NCBI GenBank assembly: GCA_017656345.1
Contig: JACDNZ010000006.1
Location: 1-64,000, forward strand
Reading direction: 5' to 3'
DNA length: 64,000 nt
DNA from: Thermosipho sp. (in: thermotogales)
GTDB lineage: Bacteria > Thermotogota > Thermotogae > Thermotogales > Fervidobacteriaceae
Below, one piece after another: positions 3,830 through 13,650 of the stretch (its first letter is position 1; each line of letters opens with the position of its first letter). Below the pieces are notes generated by a model. It was given only the letters and a program-made list of their open reading frames with translations, made no database searches and had not been told where the DNA came from. A program made the translations under genes and the position numbers.

Positions 3830-5119
3830 ATGAGTGAATTATTCAACAAAAAAGAATACTTAAAAAGCTTACTCAAAAGGCTTAAAAACGAAAACAATGA
3901 AGAGATTAAAAAAGAAGTAAAAAAACTTCTTTCGGAAATTTCACCTTTGGAAATTGCCATTGTGGAGCAAGAACTTTCAAAAGAAAATGGAATGACAGTT
4001 GATGATGTAAGAAATGTTTGTAATATTCATATTGATGTTTTAAAAAGCAAAACGGTAAATAAAAAATTGGATGTACCGGAATGGCATCCTATTCATATAT
4101 TAGTAAAAGAACATGAATTTATGCAAAATGAAGTTACTAACTTTAAAAGTCTTGTAGACCAGATCTATTCAAAAAATAATTTTTCTGATGCTATGCTTTT
4201 AATTTTAAAAATCCAAAACTTTACAGAAAACTTCGAAAATTTTGAATTTTATTTCCAAAAAGAAGAGAATGCTTTGTTCCCAATTCTAGAAAAGCATGGA
4301 ATTGAAAAACCACCAATGGTAATGTGGAAAGAACATGATATCTTCAGAGATTTAAGAAAAAGACTAAAAAATCTGAGAAATAAAGAAAATCACGATAATT
4401 TTGAAATTTTCAAAAATTCCATCTGGAAAATTGCTACTGGAATGATTGAGTTAATTTTGAATCATATACACAAAGAACATTCCATACTTTTTCCATCTGC
4501 ACTTGAAACAATAACTGAAAAAGAATGGATAGAAATCAGAAAAGAGTTTGACAAAATAGGATATTGTTGCTTTACACCAAAACCACTACCAAAGTTCAAT
4601 TTAAATAAAGAAGAAAAAAATGTTAATATTAATAATGATAGGGATGAAATAAATGAAGATGTTACTCTTGATAATATAATTGAGCTTATTAAAAAATTCT
4701 CAAAGAAACAATCGGATAAAATCAAACTTCCTAGCGGAGAATTTACTTTGCAGCAACTAATTGCTGTATTGAATGCTTTGCCTGTTGATATAACTTTTGT
4801 AGATGAAAAAGATGAGGTAAAATATTTCAATGAAACAAAAGATAGAATTTTTGTTAGAAGTAGAACAATAATTGGTAGAAAAGTTCAAAATTGTCATCCA
4901 GAAAAAAGTATAGAAATTGTTAATCGAATTTTAAGTGACTTCAAAAGTGGCAAACGAGATAAAGCGGATTTTTGGTTAAAGATGGGAGAAAAATATATTT
5001 ACATTCAGTATTTCCCCGTTAGGAACGAAAAAGGGGAATACTTAGGAACATTGGAAGTTACACAGGATATTGCACCCATTAAAAAAATAGAAGGAGAAAA
5101 AAGAATATACGACGATTAA
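3830..5119 (+). CDS. DUF438-hemerythrin-PAS sensor-like protein
   Basis: A 429-residue cytoplasmic protein with three parts. Residues about 10-80 form a DUF438 domain. Residues about 85-230 form a hemerythrin-like four-helix bundle with candidate di-iron ligands in WHPIHILVKEHEF, the FYFQKEENALFP glutamate segment, MWKEHDIF and NHIHKEHSILFP. Residues about 305-420 form a PAS domain of the type that follows DUF438 (VRSRTIIGRKVQNCHPEKS, KYIYIQYFPVRNEKGEYLG). Hemerythrin domains bind O2, NO or iron, and PAS domains sense small ligands or redox state. There is no kinase or output domain. The ATG at 3830 follows GGAGGTG. The gene is 16 bases ahead of a Crp/Fnr regulator and very probably works with it in an oxygen or nitrosative response; that link is inference. 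Confidence 0.85.
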   Translation: MSELFNKKEYLKSLLKRLKNENNEEIKKEVKKLLSEISPLEIAIVEQELSKENGMTVDDVRNVCNIHIDVLKSKTVNKKLDVPEWHPIHILVKEHEFMQNEVTNFKSLVDQIYSKNNFSDAMLLILKIQNFTENFENFEFYFQKEENALFPILEKHGIEKPPMVMWKEHDIFRDLRKRLKNLRNKENHDNFEIFKNSIWKIATGMIELILNHIHKEHSILFPSALETITEKEWIEIRKEFDKIGYCCFTPKPLPKFNLNKEEKNVNINNDRDEINEDVTLDNIIELIKKFSKKQSDKIKLPSGEFTLQQLIAVLNALPVDITFVDEKDEVKYFNETKDRIFVRSRTIIGRKVQNCHPEKSIEIVNRILSDFKSGKRDKADFWLKMGEKYIYIQYFPVRNEKGEYLGTLEVTQDIAPIKKIEGEKRIYDD

Positions 5120-5135
5120 TTCTGGGGTGAAAAAA

Positions 5136-5816
5136 TTGGAAAAATTCATTAAAACAATTAAAAATTGTGAATTATTTGATGGAATGAAAGTAGAAGAAAT
5201 AAAAGAAGTATTTAAAACTGCCAAAAAAGAAACTTATGATAAAAATTCAATTGTGAGACAAAGAGGAGAAAACTGTGATGAATTACTTTTTTTAGTTGAG
5301 GGTGAAACCCTGGGGCTTTTTACCAATGAACAGGGAAAAGTTCTTCAGATTGATCACATGATAGCTCCAAAGCTTCTAGCTTCTGCTGTTATCTTTTCTA
5401 AAGGTTCAAAATATCCTGTTGATGTTGTTACTATTAAAAAAAGTACTTTTCTTTCAATAGATAAAAACCATTTTATAAACTCAATGCTCAAACATGAAAA
5501 ACTTCTAAGAAACTACTTAAAGGTTGTTTCAGAATCTTTTATCTTTATAACCGATAGATTTTATGAGATTGCAATGAAAAATCTTGTTCAAAAGGTATGC
5601 AGTTATTTATATCGACTTTATAAAGATCAAAAGTCCCTGGAAGTAAAGCTTAATATGTCAAAGGAAGAACTTGCAAGAGAATTTGGAGTTGCAAGACCTG
5701 CCCTTTCAAGGGTATTCATAGAACTTGAAAAATACGGTATCATTGAGACAAACGGGAAAATGGTTAAACTAATTAATCTGCAATACATAAAAGACTATGC
5801 TGAATTATTTGATTAA
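5136..5816 (+). CDS. Crp/Fnr family transcriptional regulator
   Basis: A 226-residue protein with an N-terminal cyclic-nucleotide-binding-like beta barrel (about residues 5-120), a dimer helix, and a C-terminal winged helix-turn-helix of the HTH_CRP type (SKEELAREFGVARPALSRVFIELEKYGII, about residues 170-200). It lacks the N-terminal cysteine cluster of Fnr, so a 4Fe-4S sensor is unlikely; haem or another ligand is possible, as in the HcpR and DNR groups. The start is placed at TTG 5136, five bases after GGGGTGA; the GTG at 5127 inside that sequence is less likely. It is cotranscribed with the hemerythrin-PAS gene and may control the operon through the dyad at 3750-3765. Confidence 0.85.
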   Translation: MEKFIKTIKNCELFDGMKVEEIKEVFKTAKKETYDKNSIVRQRGENCDELLFLVEGETLGLFTNEQGKVLQIDHMIAPKLLASAVIFSKGSKYPVDVVTIKKSTFLSIDKNHFINSMLKHEKLLRNYLKVVSESFIFITDRFYEIAMKNLVQKVCSYLYRLYKDQKSLEVKLNMSKEELAREFGVARPALSRVFIELEKYGIIETNGKMVKLINLQYIKDYAELFD

Positions 5817-5861: not shown

Positions 5862-6701
5862 TTATATTTTTTCAGCTTTACTACTGTATTTTTTCGTCTG
5901 TAAGGTTGTGTTTCCTTTTTTAAGTATTTCTATTGCTTCTTTTTTCAAGGACAATACTTCTTCAAAAATAATATGAAGAATTACCATCTGACAAACAATA
6001 GGGGAAATCTTTGGTATCCCACCCTCAATACCCGACGGTGGAATATACAGTGTTTTGTCAACAACTTCCGTAATTCTAGACTCATAACCTCCAGTAATAG
6101 CAATAGTGTAAGCTTTGGAATCTTTTGCAACCTTCATTGACTTTACAGTATCTCTAATATTACCACTTGAAGAAATACCAAACACAACTGTTTTATCATC
6201 CATTCCAACAGCGCTTATCACCTGCATATGAGGATCAATAAAATAGTTAGCAAAAAAACCAGCCCTTGTAAACAATAGCGCTCCGTACTCTGCTACAACT
6301 CCACTTGATCCAACACCAAAGAAAAAAACTTTGTTTGAATTTATTATCTTTTGTGCAACACTTTTTATCGTTTTTTCATCAATCAATTTTGACAAATTAT
6401 TCAAAGAAAGAATTATCTCAGAAACAATTGAATGAGTTTTTGCTGGTTGGGCATCCAAATTTGATATTTCTTTTGCTAATTCAATTTTTAAAGCTTGAAA
6501 TCCCTTAAAACCAAGCTTTCTACTCAGACGCGAGATAGTTGCCTCACCAACCTTTGCGAGATCAGCTAATTCACTAATCGAATGATGAATAACATCATCT
6601 GGATATTTGATAATATATCTTGCTATCTTTTTTTCAGCTGGTTTTAACTGATCAAAAATCGCTTTTAATCGTTCAATAATACCAAGTTTTATCTCATCCA
6701 T
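5862..6701 (-). CDS. RpiR family transcriptional regulator (HTH-SIS)
   Basis: A 279-residue regulator with an N-terminal HTH_6 domain (about residues 5-80, including KIARYIIKYPDDVIHHSISELADLA read in two parts, and GEATISRLSRKLGF) and a C-terminal SIS phosphosugar-binding domain (about residues 115-245; FFFGVGSSGVVAEYGA, FGISSSGNIRDTVKSM). RpiR proteins respond to sugar phosphates and usually control neighbouring sugar uptake or catabolic genes. Here it is the last gene of a five-gene minus-strand operon and its ATG overlaps the 3' end of the glycosyltransferase by 13 bases. It is probably a local regulator of the transporter operon; the ligand is unknown. Confidence 0.9.
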   Translation of the reverse strand: MDEIKLGIIERLKAIFDQLKPAEKKIARYIIKYPDDVIHHSISELADLAKVGEATISRLSRKLGFKGFQALKIELAKEISNLDAQPAKTHSIVSEIILSLNNLSKLIDEKTIKSVAQKIINSNKVFFFGVGSSGVVAEYGALLFTRAGFFANYFIDPHMQVISAVGMDDKTVVFGISSSGNIRDTVKSMKVAKDSKAYTIAITGGYESRITEVVDKTLYIPPSGIEGGIPKISPIVCQMVILHIIFEEVLSLKKEAIEILKKGNTTLQTKKYSSKAEKI

Positions 6702-7918
6702 ATTTTTCTAAGTTCATCCTTCCTTTCAAAAAATTTATCTAATAATTTGTTAATTTCATTTTCTGCTTCCTTTGTATCCATATCTATTGTTTTTAACACA
6801 AAATCACCCGTTTTACCAAAATATATTGGGACCAGCGTTTCAATAACTTCAGTTTTATATTCCTTATATTTATATGATAACTCAAATATCACTGAAATCC
6901 AAATATCTTCATCTACTCTTCCATCCTTTTCAGCCACTTTAAATAACTTATCTGCCAATTCTGGGCTAAAAATTTTCTTAATATTTTCCCTGTTCTCAAT
7001 TATACCATTTTGACACTTTCTCAAAAGATTTTCAACATCAACTTTTATTGGTTCAGGCTTTATATCTAAAATATCTCCAAATATTGGTGCTTCAACAATT
7101 CCCTTAATATTTAACCAGCTATCTTTATATACATCCATTAAAGTAAACAATGTACCAACAACTTCTCTAAACATATTTCCAAGCTGTTTTCCGGGATCTT
7201 TAACATCATGAATTTTCGCACCCAGTGAAGCCTGATAAACAGGGAAATTTGATTCATTGATGGCAGTGGTAGTCATCCAAATATCAATCCCAAACTTTGA
7301 AATATCAGATTCCCATATTTCAACTGGTTTCTTAACGTATATTTCAATCATTTCCTTGCCAACTCCAAAATCTCCGCCGATAGGTTGTCTAACTTTCTGA
7401 CCATATAATACTGATGTTAAAGGATAACAAATAGAGTTTGTTATGGTTCCATCATATTTATGCCTAATATAGTAAGGAGTAATATATGATGTTTTGCCTT
7501 CTAAAATTGGCTTTAACAACCTTTCAATCCAGAAAGGTTCAACACTTCTCAAATCAGAATCCAAAAATACAACTGCCTTTGCATCCACTGCATATGCTAT
7601 CTCAAAAATACTTCTCATCGCTGTACCCTTACCAGAAATTCCTTCATAAACAAATGTATAAAGATCAGATTGTGCTTCACTTTTCAAAAACTCATCTCGT
7701 GTTCCATCGTTTGAACCACCATCCGAATTAATGATACAGGTTTTCATTTCCGGGAAATACTTTTTTAAACCTTTATCAGCTGTTTCAACAACATATCTGA
7801 TTGTATCAGCATTGTTATAACTAGGGATACCCACTATCAAGTCATATGGACCTTCACTAATTATCCTTTCCATAACTTCCTGCGGCACTGTATGAACCTT
7901 TAAATCTTCTTTGATCAT
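6689..7918 (-). CDS. Glycosyltransferase, mannosylglycerate/glucosylglycerate-synthase-like GT-A enzyme
   Basis: A 409-residue soluble GT-A fold enzyme. The nucleotide-sugar domain covers about residues 20-260: VGIPSYNNADTI at the first strand, the DSD metal motif in VVFLDSDLRSVEPFW (about 115-130), QPIGGDFGVGKEM, and FGIDIWMTTTA followed by a GAKIHDVKDPGK segment whose His may complete the metal site. This order resembles the mannosylglycerate synthase and glucosyl-3-phosphoglycerate synthase groups (GT78/GT81) more than ordinary wall-polymer GT2 enzymes. The C-terminal about 130 residues are helical. Its ATG overlaps the permease stop (ATGA). The setting, inside a sugar ABC operon with an RpiR regulator, suggests a compatible-solute or storage glycoside; the exact substrate cannot be read from the sequence. 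Confidence 0.75.
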   Translation of the reverse strand: MIKEDLKVHTVPQEVMERIISEGPYDLIVGIPSYNNADTIRYVVETADKGLKKYFPEMKTCIINSDGGSNDGTRDEFLKSEAQSDLYTFVYEGISGKGTAMRSIFEIAYAVDAKAVVFLDSDLRSVEPFWIERLLKPILEGKTSYITPYYIRHKYDGTITNSICYPLTSVLYGQKVRQPIGGDFGVGKEMIEIYVKKPVEIWESDISKFGIDIWMTTTAINESNFPVYQASLGAKIHDVKDPGKQLGNMFREVVGTLFTLMDVYKDSWLNIKGIVEAPIFGDILDIKPEPIKVDVENLLRKCQNGIIENRENIKKIFSPELADKLFKVAEKDGRVDEDIWISVIFELSYKYKEYKTEVIETLVPIYFGKTGDFVLKTIDMDTKEAENEINKLLDKFFERKDELRKIWMR

Positions 7919-9210
7919 TCTTTAACACCTCCTGCTGTAAAACCTGCTGTAAGATATTTTTCCATAAGACTAAATATAATTATAATTGGTACAGCCGAAA
8001 CTAGCGAAGCGGCCATCAATCTACCCCAAACTGAATGCGCTGATTGACTAAATGCGTTGAGTCCTATAGGTAAAGTAAACAAATCCTTATACGATTTTAA
8101 ACCGAGAAAAGCAGATGCAAATAAATATTCGTTCCAACCAATCATAAATGCATAAATATAAACTGTGACTATTGCAGGAGCTGATAACGGGATTATTATC
8201 TTTAAAATTGTCTGCATTCTAGTACAACCATCGATAATTGCAGCCTCTTCAATAGAATATGGAATTGTTCTAAAATAGTTTCCCAACATATATAATGAAA
8301 CAGGTAAAGTCTGAATAATATACACAATAATCAAATAAACTCCCGCTCCAAATGGAGTTGATAATATTCCTAATTTTACAGCCATTTGATATAAAGGAAC
8401 CATAATTACTGTCCCACCAAACAAGTATACAACTAATACTGATCTTTGAAGCATTCCTTTTCCTCTAAATCTAAGTCTAGAAATTGCATAACCACCAAGC
8501 ATTGCAAAAATAAGGCTAAATAAAGCTCCTAAACCTGCAAACATTAGAGAATTCTTCATGTATTTAAGAAACGGAAATTCCGTTGCTTTTTCTGCAATTA
8601 TCTTTTGCTTTTGCTCTTCCAGTTCATTTATTTGCTCTTTTACTTTTGCTAACTCTTTATCTAAAAATTCTTCTGATTTGTAATTATTCAAGAAATAATA
8701 TAAATCGTTTAATAAAGTTATATCGCCTTCACTTAATATTATCTGGGCATTTTCCATTATTTCGTTATATTCTTTTGTTCCTATTTTCATTGCATTTTGC
8801 AAATATTCTTCCCTATTTTCGGGTGTCAAACCAGAAAAATCCATTATTAATTCGATCATATTTCGTAATTCCTTTTCTTTTTCTGGAATTAACGTTTCCT
8901 CAACATAGGTTAGATAACTTTCTTTTGATGCCGAAATGCTCTTTAATCTTTCTAGTTTTGTATTTATTGATTCCAGATTTCTTTTTGTTATTTCATCACC
9001 AAAAAATGCTTCTTCAGTGCTCTGGATTAACCCAAAAATTTCTGCATAATTTCTCAATGTTAAATTATTAAAACTTGTCTTGTAAGGATCATAATCCGCA
9101 TGAAAAGAAACAATCAACATATAATAAAAAGGAATCAAAATGATGGATGCTATTATCACCAAGCCAAAGTAGAACAAAAACTTTCTCAATGGTGATTTCC
9201 TTTTTACCAT
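7915..9210 (-). CDS. Sugar ABC transporter permease (MalG type) with large coiled-coil insertion
   Basis: A 431-residue inner-membrane permease; ordinary MalG-type subunits have about 270-300 residues. TM1 lies at about residues 11-36. After the NYAEIFGL segment an extra charged, helical region of about 145 residues (about 66-210) is inserted, rich in Glu and Lys with coiled-coil heptads (for example INTKLERLKSI and KVKEQINELEEQKQK). The normal fold then resumes at FPFLKYMKNSL with five further membrane segments. The EAA loop for the ATPase is intact (EAAIIDGCTRMQTILKIIIP). By topology the insertion faces outside. The start overlaps the upstream permease stop by 7 bases. No ATP-binding subunit is in the operon, so a shared MsmK-type ATPase is presumably used. 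Confidence 0.88.
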   Translation of the reverse strand: MVKRKSPLRKFLFYFGLVIIASIILIPFYYMLIVSFHADYDPYKTSFNNLTLRNYAEIFGLIQSTEEAFFGDEITKRNLESINTKLERLKSISASKESYLTYVEETLIPEKEKELRNMIELIMDFSGLTPENREEYLQNAMKIGTKEYNEIMENAQIILSEGDITLLNDLYYFLNNYKSEEFLDKELAKVKEQINELEEQKQKIIAEKATEFPFLKYMKNSLMFAGLGALFSLIFAMLGGYAISRLRFRGKGMLQRSVLVVYLFGGTVIMVPLYQMAVKLGILSTPFGAGVYLIIVYIIQTLPVSLYMLGNYFRTIPYSIEEAAIIDGCTRMQTILKIIIPLSAPAIVTVYIYAFMIGWNEYLFASAFLGLKSYKDLFTLPIGLNAFSQSAHSVWGRLMAASLVSAVPIIIIFSLMEKYLTAGFTAGGVKE

Positions 9211-10064
9211 TTTAACACCTTCTTCACATAGAAACCAATTAGTACCATCATTACTACCATTAAAATGGTTGCAATAGCAGCCGCAACACCAAATTCAGGA
9301 GAAGTTGTACCAATTACTCTTTCATATATAAAAATTGGTAAAGTACCCGCACTCTTACTCATCAAATATACTTCATCGAATTTGTAAAAATTCCAAATAC
9401 CTCTCAACAATCCAACAGCAGCAATTACAAAGTAAAGTTCTGGTAACGTTACATTGGTAAACTTTCTCCAGGCATTTGCTCCATCTATTTCTGCTGCTTC
9501 ATATAATTCAGAAGGAATTGATTGCAATTTCGAAAGAATCATTAAATACACAAATGGAAAATTTCTCCAAATATTGAATACTGAAACCACAATAAATGCA
9601 TTATTTATATTATTTAAAAGATCAATATCAGTGGATATTAATCCTAATTTTCTTCCGAAAAATTCAACAAATGGTCCAAGGCTTGGATCAAAAATATAGT
9701 GCCAGGAAAACACTACCGATATTAAAGGAGTAATATATGGCAGCAAAATTATTGTTCTCATTATTCTTCTACCCTTAAAATCTTTATTCATCATCAATGC
9801 AACAATTAGGCCAAGCAATATACTACCCACAACAGTCAATAAAGTAAATGAAATGGTTATAAAAAACGATCTCCAGAAATCCTTGTCAGAAAGAATTCTT
9901 TTATAATTTTCAAGTCCAACAAATTTCATAGAAGTAATTCCTACATCGAAAAAAGAAATATAAATGTTGTAAATAACTGGATATAAAATTAGCAATAGTA
10001 GAAGAATAATCGTAGGTGCAACCAGTTTCCAAGCAAATCTTTCTTCTTTAACTGAAAGTTCCAA
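9204..10064 (-). CDS. Sugar ABC transporter permease (MalF type)
   Basis: A 286-residue permease with six predicted membrane segments (first at about residues 12-34) and the conserved EAA motif that docks the ATPase (LYEAAEIDGANAWRKFTNVTLP, about 188-209, given here in two halves by function). It forms the transmembrane channel with the MalG-type partner downstream, importing a sugar delivered by the binding protein. The start is TTG at 10064, seven bases after GGAGGTGA; no ATG or GTG is suitably placed. It follows the binding-protein gene after a 68-base gap containing a stable hairpin, and overlaps the next permease by 7 bases. Confidence 0.9.
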   Translation of the reverse strand: MELSVKEERFAWKLVAPTIILLLLLILYPVIYNIYISFFDVGITSMKFVGLENYKRILSDKDFWRSFFITISFTLLTVVGSILLGLIVALMMNKDFKGRRIMRTIILLPYITPLISVVFSWHYIFDPSLGPFVEFFGRKLGLISTDIDLLNNINNAFIVVSVFNIWRNFPFVYLMILSKLQSIPSELYEAAEIDGANAWRKFTNVTLPELYFVIAAVGLLRGIWNFYKFDEVYLMSKSAGTLPIFIYERVIGTTSPEFGVAAAIATILMVVMMVLIGFYVKKVLKW

Positions 10065-10093
10065 CTCTTGTTCACCTCCTATATAGAGAGGAA

Positions 10094-10111
10094 GGGGGAC
10101 TGTTGTCCCCC
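10094..10111 (-). other. Intercistronic GC-rich hairpin between binding protein and permease genes
   Basis: GGGGGAC (10094-10100) pairs with GTCCCCC (10105-10111) around a 4-base loop. On the minus strand it follows the binding-protein stop codon but has no T-run, and the next gene's ribosome site lies just beyond. Such hairpins commonly stabilise the upstream mRNA so that binding protein is made in excess over permeases. Confidence 0.6.
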
Positions 10112-10132
10112 CCTTTATTAGAAATTACTTAA

Positions 10133-11434
10133 TTATTTTCCGGTGACTTTTTTCATTTCTGTCTCCCAGAAACTTAGTACTTCTTCAGGAGTAAGTCCTT
10201 CATCAAACATTTTTACTATCCCTTTTCCTATAATGAATGCACCTGAAATCTTTCCCATTTCCGGGAAAACTTTTCCAGCAACATATCCAAATTTTTCAAC
10301 ATTAGACATACCCTCAATTATTTCCATTATTTTCTCTTTTCCATACCTGGTATAAATTCCTTTAGGATCGTTCATAAACACTTCGCTTTCGGCCATTTCC
10401 TTGGTTGTTGGCAACATTCCTCCAGGTGCCATATGTAAAAACTTCACATAATTTTCTGGTTCAAACATGAAATTCAAAAATTTCCAGGCACCAAGTTTAT
10501 TGGTTGTTGTGTTTAAAACTCCCAATGAAACAACCTGTCCAAAAGAAGACTTTCTTGAATGAGTCATGTATGGAGCAAAACCTGTATTATCTACAAGTTC
10601 AGGATTAAAGTTTTCAATATATTTTGTTTGAACTTCTGCCAATGCTAAATCATCCATTATGTAAGTTGAATAGAAAAACATTGCTGCTTTACCCTGTAAA
10701 TACAATTCCCTTGCTTGTTTCCAATATGTATGTCCGGGTGCAGAATATTTGCCAAGTTCTCTATAATATTCTAATGTTTCTTTCATCTGAGGAGAATTTA
10801 CAACTATGTTTCCGTTTTTATCAAAAATTCTGGCACCATTTGATAATGCAAAAATTGTAAATACCTGCTCAGCATATGAATCTGCATTTTTTGCCAAAAC
10901 AATTCCATATATTCCTTTATCAGGATTGTTAAAATATCTTGCAGCATTTAAAATGGCTTCCCAGGTAACAGGAGGTTCCAATCCTGCTTCCTCAAACCAA
11001 TCTTTCCTATACCAAATTCCTTGAACCCATCCATGATATGGGACCGCATAATAGTTATTTCCATCAGGAGACATTACAAATCTTGCAGCTCCTTCATAAA
11101 AAGTCCAACCAGAATTGTTAATAAACCTTGTTGGGAGTATCGTATCAAGCAATCCATCTGATCCTAAACTCAAAATTGTTTCAGCACCAGCTTCAATGAT
11201 ATCAGGAAGAGTTCCTGCTGCTTTTGCGGCAGCCAATTTTGAAAACATTTCATTTTCTTCAACAGCAACAACTTCAACTTCTATACCCGTCTCAATAGAA
11301 AAAGTTTCAGCAAGTTGATTTATTACCTTTTGTCTGCTTTCTTCAACTTGTGTATGCCAAAAAACTATTTTACTCGCACTGAAGGATATACTAAAAACAA
11401 ACACTAACAAAAGAACCATAAAAAGTTTTTTCAT
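10133..11434 (-). CDS. Extracellular sugar-binding protein of ABC importer
   Basis: A 433-residue family 1 solute-binding protein. A clear signal peptide (MKKLFMVLLLVFVFSISFSA) has no lipobox cysteine, so the protein is probably released or held through its N-terminus. Maltose/multiple-sugar-binding hallmarks follow: IVFWHTQVEE, AAKAAGTLPDIIE, AVPYHGWVQGIWYRKDWF, LYLQGKAAMFF and AWKFLNFMF. The substrate is a carbohydrate, but the sequence does not say which. The start is ATG 11434, eight bases after GGAGGTG; an upstream ATG at 11464 in frame is only part of the leader. It is the first gene of the operon with permeases, glycosyltransferase and RpiR regulator. Confidence 0.92.
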   Translation of the reverse strand: MKKLFMVLLLVFVFSISFSASKIVFWHTQVEESRQKVINQLAETFSIETGIEVEVVAVEENEMFSKLAAAKAAGTLPDIIEAGAETILSLGSDGLLDTILPTRFINNSGWTFYEGAARFVMSPDGNNYYAVPYHGWVQGIWYRKDWFEEAGLEPPVTWEAILNAARYFNNPDKGIYGIVLAKNADSYAEQVFTIFALSNGARIFDKNGNIVVNSPQMKETLEYYRELGKYSAPGHTYWKQARELYLQGKAAMFFYSTYIMDDLALAEVQTKYIENFNPELVDNTGFAPYMTHSRKSSFGQVVSLGVLNTTTNKLGAWKFLNFMFEPENYVKFLHMAPGGMLPTTKEMAESEVFMNDPKGIYTRYGKEKIMEIIEGMSNVEKFGYVAGKVFPEMGKISGAFIIGKGIVKMFDEGLTPEEVLSFWETEMKKVTGK

Positions 11435-11768
11435 GCTTTCACCTCCGAAGAAAAATATTTTCATGTGACATATTTATAATATCAGATATCCGAAAAAAAT
11501 TAAAACTTGTTTTTTAATAATTAAACTGATTCTCATTAATTTATCAAGATTATACAGAGAAATACATCAAAAATCATTGTTTTAATATTATAACCGAACC
11601 AAAACCCGAGAATTTCGTCTAAATTTAAAGAATATCAAATTCAGTTAATGTCTACTAATTTTGTCTGAATTGTAACAATAATTTTAGATATATTATTCTC
11701 TTGTGGTGTATAATTTTATCGTGCATGTATAAAAAACAATGGCAAAAATTTTTTGGAGGTGTATACTA
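11435..11768. promoter_or_regulatory. Divergent intergenic region between sugar ABC operon and redox operon
   Basis: This 334-base stretch has no gene. Leftward, an extended -10 (TGATATTAT on the minus strand, 11476-11484) lies about 45 bases before the binding-protein start. Rightward, TATAAT at 11709-11714 lies 55 bases before the PDO start, with only a weak -35. Upstream of it are two near-identical 9-mers, GTCTAAATT (11617-11625) and GTCTGAATT (11663-11671), and an inverted pair AATTCAG (11638-11644) / CTGAATT (11665-11671). These could be operator elements, but no binding protein can be named. Confidence 0.5.
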
Positions 11769-12431
11769 ATGGCACTTTTATCAGCAAAAGACAGGGAATA
11801 TTTAAAGGATTTATTCTCTAAAGAACTCGAAAACAAAGTAAAGCTTATTTATTTTGGAGATGCTAAGGAAAATTGTGAATACTGTGAACTTGAAGAACAA
11901 ATCTTAGACGAACTTCAGGAGCTTTCTGACAAAATAATTATTGAAAGATATAACGTAAATGAAAACAAAGATTTAGTTGAAAAATATGAAGTTGAAATGA
12001 CTCCAGCATTAATCTTAACACTTGAAGATGGCGAAGATAAAGGAGTTAGATTCTATGGTCTTCCATCAGGGCATGAATTCGGTACATTAGTTCAGGATAT
12101 CGTTACTTTTGGAAAAGGTGCTAAACCTGAACTTTCTTCAACAACAATTGAAAAACTTAAAGCTATTGATAAACCTGTTAAGATCAGCGTATTCGTTACA
12201 CCAACATGTCCTTACTGTCCTCGTGCAGTTCTAACAGCTCACAATTTTGCTTTAGTTAACCCATTAATAAAAGCTGAAATGATTGAAGCTAACGAATTCT
12301 TTGATCTCAGTAACGAATTTGGTGTTTCATCTGTTCCACACATTGTTATTAACAGAAATCCAAACACATTCTTTATCGGTGCATATCCAGAACCTCAATA
12401 CTTAGAAGAAGTATTGAAGGCAATAAAGTAA
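11769..12431 (+). CDS. Protein disulfide oxidoreductase with two thioredoxin folds (PDO)
   Basis: A 220-residue cytoplasmic protein built of two thioredoxin/glutaredoxin units, as in the PDO of Pyrococcus and other thermophiles. The N-terminal unit has CEYC (about residues 38-41) and the C-terminal unit CPYC (about 150-153), each followed by its cis-Pro segment (VEMTPALI and VSSVPHIV). PDOs shuffle disulfides in thermophile cytoplasm and are reduced by a thioredoxin reductase, here encoded 14 bases downstream. The start is ATG 11769 behind TTGGAGGTG; an in-frame ATG at 11739 upstream of that ribosome site is unlikely. It opens a redox operon that continues with trxB and a glutaredoxin. Confidence 0.92.
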   Translation: MALLSAKDREYLKDLFSKELENKVKLIYFGDAKENCEYCELEEQILDELQELSDKIIIERYNVNENKDLVEKYEVEMTPALILTLEDGEDKGVRFYGLPSGHEFGTLVQDIVTFGKGAKPELSSTTIEKLKAIDKPVKISVFVTPTCPYCPRAVLTAHNFALVNPLIKAEMIEANEFFDLSNEFGVSSVPHIVINRNPNTFFIGAYPEPQYLEEVLKAIK

Positions 12432-12445
12432 GGAGGTGAACTATT

Positions 12446-13396
12446 ATGGTTCACTTTGATTTGGGAAATATTTCGACCGGTCCTAAAGATTATTATGACA
12501 TATTAATTGTTGGTGGTGGACCAGCAGGATTAACTGCTGCCATTTACGCTGGAAGAGCAGGACTTTCTGCCGGAGTTTTTGAAAAATCAATCGAAGGTGG
12601 AGCAGTTACTCAAACTCACATAGTCGAAAATTGGCCAGGATTTATGAGAATAGAAGGAAATGAACTTGGAGAAAAATTTGCTGAACATGCTAGAGAATTT
12701 GGTGCTGAACTTATAACCGCAGAAGTTGTAAAAATTACATATGACGATGATTATAAATATATTCATTTAGACAATGGAAAAGTTGTTAAAGGGAAAGTCC
12801 TAATCTTTGCAACCGGAGCTGTTCCAAGAGAACTTGGAGTTCCCGGTGAAAAAGAATTTAGAGGAAAAGGCGTTACCTATTGTGCGGCATGCGATGGATA
12901 TCTATTCTCAGGAAAAGATGTAGTTGTTGTTGGTGGTGGAGATAGTGCTTGTGACGAAGCTCATTTTCTTGCAAAAATGGTTAAAAGTATTACAATGGTT
13001 CAAAATCTTCCATATTTAACTGCTGCAAAAGTTCTGCAGGACAGACTCTTGTCAAATAACAATGTGAAAGTTATATATAATTCTTTAGTAAAAGAAATAA
13101 GGGGTAATGACAAAGTTGAAGAAGTTGTTGTCGTAGATAATGAAACTGGTAAAGAAACAGTTATTAAAGCTGAAGGTGTTTTCATTTATATTGGACTTGT
13201 TCCCAAAAGTGATCTTTTGAAGGATATTGTAAAAGTCGACAAATTTGGTTACATAATAACAGATGAAAATATGGAAACAAATATCCCGGGAATCTACGCA
13301 GTTGGAGACGTTAGAGTAAAAAATCTTAGGCAAATTGTTACTGCCGCCGCTGATGGTGCAATCGCAGTTGAACATGCAGCGAAAAAATATTTCTAG
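12446..13396 (+). CDS. trxB: Thioredoxin reductase (FAD/NAD(P)H)
   Basis: A 316-residue flavoprotein. The FAD-binding GGGPAGLTAA motif is near residues 23-32, the redox-active pair is CAAC in VTYCAACDGY (about 150-153), a second dinucleotide motif VVGGGDSACDEA follows, and the C-terminal FAD segment GIYAVGDVR is present. It passes electrons from NAD(P)H to small thiol proteins; in this operon the partners are most likely the PDO just upstream and the glutaredoxin-like protein just downstream. Start ATG 12446 follows AAGGAGGTGA. CAAC replaces the more common CATC of bacterial enzymes, which does not alter the chemistry expected. Confidence 0.95.
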   Translation: MVHFDLGNISTGPKDYYDILIVGGGPAGLTAAIYAGRAGLSAGVFEKSIEGGAVTQTHIVENWPGFMRIEGNELGEKFAEHAREFGAELITAEVVKITYDDDYKYIHLDNGKVVKGKVLIFATGAVPRELGVPGEKEFRGKGVTYCAACDGYLFSGKDVVVVGGGDSACDEAHFLAKMVKSITMVQNLPYLTAAKVLQDRLLSNNNVKVIYNSLVKEIRGNDKVEEVVVVDNETGKETVIKAEGVFIYIGLVPKSDLLKDIVKVDKFGYIITDENMETNIPGIYAVGDVRVKNLRQIVTAAADGAIAVEHAAKKYF

Positions 13397-13407
13397 GAGG
13401 TGGCAAA

Positions 13408-13650
13408 ATGCAACATTTGAAAATAACAATTTACACTACTCCAACTTGTCCATACTGTAAAAAAGCAAAAAACTATTTCAAACAACTTGGATTAAAATTC
13501 AAAGAATATGATGTTTCAAAAGATCAAAAAGCAGCAGACAGAATGTACAGAAAATCAGGTCAATTAGGTGTGCCTGTAATTGAAATAGGGAATCAAGTTA
13601 TTGTAGGGTTTGATAAATTAAAAATTGATAGAATATTAGGCATAAATTAA
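13408..13650 (+). CDS. Glutaredoxin-like protein (NrdH/Grx type)
   Basis: An 80-residue single-domain thiol protein with CPYC at about residues 14-17 (TTPTCPYCKKA) and a cis-Pro segment GVPVIEIGNQVIVGFD that is typical of NrdH-redoxins and small glutaredoxins. It would carry electrons from TrxB to targets such as ribonucleotide reductase. It lies 11 bases behind trxB with its own GGAGGTGG site and is followed by a strong terminator, so it closes the first part of the redox series. Confidence 0.9.
   Translation: MQHLKITIYTTPTCPYCKKAKNYFKQLGLKFKEYDVSKDQKAADRMYRKSGQLGVPVIEIGNQVIVGFDKLKIDRILGIN

Follow-up and report, generated by a model that had tools for sequence, protein, structure and literature searches.

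The systems closest to the locus described here are the ycjMNOP genes of E. coli, the glycerate-type glycosyltransferases GpgS and mannosylglycerate synthase (MgS), and the mannosylglucosylglycerate (MGG) pathway of Petrotoga mobilis. The glucosylglycerate synthase Ggs and a non-phosphorylating MGG pathway were reportedly described by Fernandes et al. in 2010 from work on P. mobilis and the T. maritima MggS, with four enzymes in all; to our knowledge, no operon link to an importer and an RpiR regulator was drawn there. P. mobilis has been reported to make MGG (PMC3694870). In GpgS, Val186 and Thr187 hold the acceptor carboxylate, and their counterparts in MgS are Ile138 and Thr139 (PMC2581804). 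In E. coli, YcjM is a characterised glucosylglycerate phosphorylase, and the binding protein YcjN bound none of the sugars screened, among which glucosylglycerate was not included (PMC11543891).

The 64,000-nucleotide stretch of Thermosipho sp. DNA analyzed here (contig JACDNZ010000006.1; hereafter, the window) carries a minus-strand operon of five genes, running from 11434 to 5862 according to open reading frame (ORF) calls and Pfam. The operon is likely an RpiR-controlled glucosylglycerate module that combines a synthase with an importer. Its parts, and a site upstream of it, are as follows.

10133..11434, minus strand: solute-binding protein of the YcjN type with a signal peptide (SBP_bac_1, E=7e-33)
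9204..10064, minus strand: MalF-type permease with an EAA loop and a TTG start (BPD_transp_1)
7915..9210, minus strand: MalG-type permease with an EAA loop and a charged insert (BPD_transp_1)
6689..7918, minus strand: GT-A glycosyltransferase, predicted glucosylglycerate synthase (Ggs) (Glycos_transf_2; AlphaFold2 model)
5862..6701, minus strand: RpiR-family regulator (HTH_6 and SIS, Pfam)
11449..11463, minus strand: near-palindrome TGAAAATATTTTTCT, candidate RpiR operator (sequence and scoring of upstream regions)

An earlier note, made from the sequence of the window, had described five tightly joined genes that overlap from the second gene on, and the junctions agree: a 68-base gap separates the binding protein from MalF, and each later pair of neighbors overlaps, by 7, 4 (ATGA), and 13 bases in turn. 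The note was also right that the operon holds no ATPase or catabolic gene, as judged by an ORF and Pfam scan of the five genes, and that its last gene encodes an RpiR/MurR protein, identified by HTH_6 and SIS domains. The binding protein starts at the ATG at 11434, behind the Shine-Dalgarno sequence GGAGGTG; the mechanically called frame opens at 11464. Upstream, divergent plus-strand genes (11739-13650) encode a glutaredoxin-like protein, a thioredoxin reductase, and a glutaredoxin, the first two of which are kept beside the operon across the same genus. Convergent with the RpiR gene, plus-strand positions 3830-5816 encode a DUF438-hemerythrin-PAS protein followed by a Crp/Fnr-type regulator; the two resemble a pair for sensing redox state or gases, with no apparent link to the operon.

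The binding protein and the two EAA-loop permeases match three parts of a CUT1-type importer; the fourth, a MalK-type ATPase, is absent from the operon. Elsewhere the genome has two MalK/UgpC-type ATPases, one at C1:175864 and a lone UgpC-type at C4:96983. Among PDB sequences, the binding protein matches YcjN (8ula, 7v09, and 8vqk) with E ~1e-57, and the next family follows at 2e-20. Identity to the E. coli proteins is 32% between the binding protein and YcjN, 40% between MalF and YcjO, and 45% over the core between MalG and YcjP. By sequence comparison, the importer is thus homologous to E. coli YcjNOP in its binding protein and both permeases. Alignment places the MalG insert, which comprises ~110 charged residues, in the first periplasmic loop. 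It is common to the Mesotoga-type versions (431 aa) and absent from the Kosmotoga, Petrotoga, and Mesoaciditoga types (321-324 aa), and it might contact the binding protein.

No NCBIfam model calls the glycosyltransferase; GpgS proteins are its best PDB matches in sequence searches, and these are weak. The AlphaFold2 model (pLDDT 92.7) finds its best PDB folds in 2y4j and 2bo7, the R. marinus mannosylglycerate synthase, over the full length (~400 columns, TM ~0.7); the match to the GpgS fold is limited to the GT-A core (TM ~0.43). Across 38 aligned sequences, the DSD, GKG, TITN, and GGD motifs and H237 are invariant or nearly so. The conserved Lys-Asp-Glu/Asp network of such enzymes is represented by invariant D120 and D122 of DSD, K97 of GKG, and D212, an Asp in the place of Glu232. 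The enzyme therefore belongs to the glycerate-type retaining GT-A enzymes of the GT78/GT81 superfamily, to which the earlier note had assigned it. Fold, motifs, and context all speak against a wall-polymer glycosyltransferase, an assignment that the note had named as one that would count against its reading. A true GpgS was also rejected (50.6 bits against an NCBIfam cut-off of 262, with Thr158 in place of Arg), and among annotated plasmids the search returned distant matches only.

Residues of the acceptor site favor free D-glycerate over a phosphorylated acceptor. The carboxylate-binding Thr of GpgS (T187) and MgS (T139) is kept as T160, within an invariant Ile159-Thr160 pair. The Arg of the GpgS motif GRVT, which presumably contacts the acceptor phosphate, is replaced by Thr158 (GTIT) in 38/38 aligned sequences. 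Both GpgS-type enzymes that were aligned, P. mobilis GpgS and a GpgS-like enzyme from Aminicenantes, retain this Arg. Because the Arg position is an invariant Thr while the carboxylate-binding Ile-Thr is kept, free D-glycerate is the predicted acceptor.

Orthologues of the glycosyltransferase occur in 65/103 genomes of the class. The order binding protein, MalF, MalG, glycosyltransferase, RpiR is repeated in all 22 inspected Thermotogae genomes that have both the binding protein and the enzyme, with two exceptions in detail: L184 lacks an RpiR call, and L176 has a GT4 gene between MalG and the enzyme. Since it recurs in 22/22 genomes, the arrangement is far from chance, and the lack of conserved order that the earlier note had set as grounds for dismissal was not encountered. 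The note had also called the coupling of a synthase to an importer unusual, which is so by general knowledge but not in several families of Thermotogae, where it is the standard arrangement. RpiR adjoins the glycosyltransferase in most relatives. Thermotoga and Pseudothermotoga operons combine the same glycosyltransferase and RpiR with a GH38 enzyme, a GT4 gene, and a different importer that comes with an ATPase of its own. In trees of the enzyme, the binding protein, and RpiR alike, the window's group falls beside Mesotoga-type genomes, a pattern that transfer or descent of the operon as a whole would produce. Two genomes of the same genus hold only the glycosyltransferase and RpiR; since these lie at the same site and the two genomes form a clade inside the group, their importer genes were probably lost. 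Outside Thermotogae, relatives of the enzyme occur in other settings, some of them beside GpgS-like and MpgP-type genes, so members of the family may differ in activity. In Aminicenantes and a Syntrophus-titled bin (L090, L097, L110, and L128), the neighbors of such relatives are an MpgP-family phosphatase and another glycosyltransferase, which belongs to the same cluster as that of L090 and scores as GpgS-like but below the cut-off; these neighborhoods possibly encode a combined pathway for a glucosylglycerate derivative.

Ten genomes carry the same importer without the glycosyltransferase and with a YcjM-type GH13 phosphorylase. In the 6/6 swap genomes inspected, the order is binding protein, MalF, MalG, RpiR, GH13 protein, with a GT4 gene adjacent, and the GH13 proteins share 42-45% identity with E. 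coli YcjM over nearly the whole length. L217 has, in addition, a gene for a glycerate 2-kinase homologue that overlaps the end of the phosphorylase gene. Counted across genomes of one class with kinship ignored, each of the 37 genomes with the binding protein has one and only one of the two enzymes, the synthase type in 27 and the phosphorylase in 10. None of the GH13 proteins in the window's own genome reaches the YcjM-type family. We lean, by a modest degree, toward the view that YcjN-type importers, from E. coli to Thermotogae, are devoted to glucosylglycerate and have been joined to a single RpiR-switched slot that holds a synthase, to accumulate the compound, or a phosphorylase, to eat it. 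The synthase side would then comprise the Thermosipho, Petrotoga, Kosmotoga, Mesotoga, and Mesoaciditoga types, and the phosphorylase side, in some cases with a glycerate kinase, the Marinitoga type. If true, one operon slot decides whether an imported compound serves as protectant or as food.

Glucosylglycerate, and not mannosylglycerate, is the most likely product, judging from two genomic associations: the pairing with mannosylglucosylglycerate synthase, which needs glucosylglycerate, and the swap with glucosylglycerate phosphorylase. The GT4 mannosylglucosylglycerate synthase family is present in 61 of the 65 genomes with the glycosyltransferase (Fisher p=9e-9, kinship ignored). In the window's genome, the NF041101 mannosylglucosylglycerate synthase (GT4) scores 752 bits against a cut-off of 640; it scores 681 in a genome that we take to be that of T. 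petrophila, and 405-460, under the cut-off, in many relatives. The window's genome also encodes glgC, for ADP-glucose, and a MOFRL-type glycerate 2-kinase homologue, and no GpgS was found in it. Its mannosylglucosylglycerate synthase gene ends a second ABC operon (G000:C1:172360-178200; L214:10361-16197) that encodes a binding protein, two permeases, and a MalK-type ATPase. Several Thermosipho-type genomes share this second operon, and in L227 an RpiR copy closes it.

A palindrome, TGAAA-N5-TTTCA with the consensus TGAAAATATTTTTCA, lies upstream of these operons. A match of at least 12/15 to TGAAAATATTTTTCA was found in 22/22 type-A upstream regions versus 30/211 control regions from the same loci, and a similar site precedes 15/17 type-B operons, a set that was not used in writing the consensus. 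In the window, the site (11463-11449) follows a -10-like TATTAT and precedes the ribosome-binding site. A loosened motif gave 63 matches across the genome versus 44 for a reversed control and is hardly specific. Given the AT-rich motif and the kinship of the genomes, the palindrome stays a candidate RpiR operator predicted from sequence. Similar-looking sites precede the mannosylglucosylglycerate synthase operon of the window's genome (C1:172216 and C1:172246). The idea of a shared RpiR operator there was discarded, since such sites are not enriched before second ABC operons bearing MggS (3/9, p=0.14).

In the mechanism that we infer for substrate, donor, transport direction, and RpiR binding and effector, the glycosyltransferase would use a nucleotide-activated sugar, probably ADP-glucose, to glucosylate free D-glycerate, giving 2-O-alpha-D-glucosyl-D-glycerate in one step. 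The GT4 mannosylglucosylglycerate synthase encoded elsewhere would extend this compound to the osmolyte MGG. The binding protein and two permeases would take up glucosylglycerate or MGG from the medium, or retrieve leaked solute, with energy from a shared MalK-type ATPase encoded at another locus (on C1, or the lone UgpC-type on C4). RpiR may bind TGAAA-N5-TTTCA just upstream and switch the whole set, as a repressor. Import and synthesis together fit osmolyte accumulation and recapture of leaked solute.

Other assignments of the sugar deserve consideration. The earlier note had called the enzyme mannosylglycerate-synthase-like, which stands for the fold but not for the product. That it makes mannosylglycerate from GDP-mannose and D-glycerate, with an importer that handles mannosylglycerate, is unlikely: its nearest full-length fold is the R. 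marinus mannosylglycerate synthase, but the near-strict pairing with mannosylglucosylglycerate synthase and the phosphorylase swap point to glucosylglycerate. The GH38 enzyme of Thermotoga-type operons weakly resembles mannosylglycerate hydrolase (198 bits, with the cut-off at 1138), yet an enzyme of this family could also strip the terminal alpha-mannose from MGG, and no such GH38 turned up in the window's genome at E<=1e-40.

Two further readings concern the relation of importer to enzyme, which the note had seen either as coordinated uptake and synthesis of one glycoside or as delivery of an imported acceptor to the glycosyltransferase. Of the two, the former is the better alternative. The latter, with imported glucosylglycerate receiving a second sugar, would suit Aminicenantes and related bacteria, where a GpgS-like gene and an MpgP-family phosphatase next to the enzyme gene could supply glucosylglycerate without it; in such settings outside Thermotogae, a one-step glucosylglycerate synthase would be redundant, which counts against the module proposed here. 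The imported-acceptor reading, however, lost ground with the two same-genus genomes that retain the glycosyltransferase and RpiR without a YcjN-type importer, one of which also lacks mannosylglucosylglycerate synthase and GpgS and thus shows no other source of glucosylglycerate. The second sugar is, moreover, already assigned to the GT4 enzyme, and we regard an imported acceptor as improbable. Hardly more credible is an importer for an unrelated sugar that ended up behind the same promoter as the synthase through chance assembly of the operon. Such a coincidence would agree with the failure of E. coli YcjN to bind any sugar screened and with the different importer family that precedes the same glycosyltransferase and RpiR in Thermotoga and Pseudothermotoga, but 37/37 genomes with the binding protein have one of the two glucosylglycerate enzymes, and wherever gene order was inspected that enzyme shares the operon of the importer. 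In E. coli, too, ycjM is the gene immediately ahead of ycjN.

The glucosylglycerate module would put uptake and synthesis of an osmolyte of extremophiles on a single transcript, and it names a concrete candidate ligand, glucosylglycerate, for the orphan YcjN family of binding proteins. That the same importer and regulator occur with a synthase in some genomes and with a phosphorylase in others also offers a natural comparison of how storage and consumption of an osmolyte evolve into each other.

The locus resembles E. coli ycjMNOP in its homologous importer and in the YcjM-type phosphorylase that replaces the synthase in ten Thermotogae. In contrast to E. coli, the window has a synthase rather than a phosphorylase and RpiR rather than the LacI-type YcjW, and the kojibiose and dehydrogenase genes of the ycj system are missing from its operon. 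With R. marinus mannosylglycerate synthase (GT78; 2BO4 and others), the enzyme shares the full-length fold, the DxD motif, the carboxylate-binding Ile-Thr, and an acceptor site for free D-glycerate, whereas identity is 14-16% and the predicted donor sugar is glucose rather than mannose. With GpgS (GT81), it has the GT-A core and motifs in common and differs by an additional C-terminal helical domain, as in MgS. The genome that we take to be that of P. mobilis has the same importer-glycosyltransferase operon besides GpgS; it holds an orthologue of the window enzyme (L174), a separate GpgS (L175) that has another glycosyltransferase next to it, and an MggS homologue (L221). This gene set is consistent with the four enzymes of Fernandes et al. 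2010.
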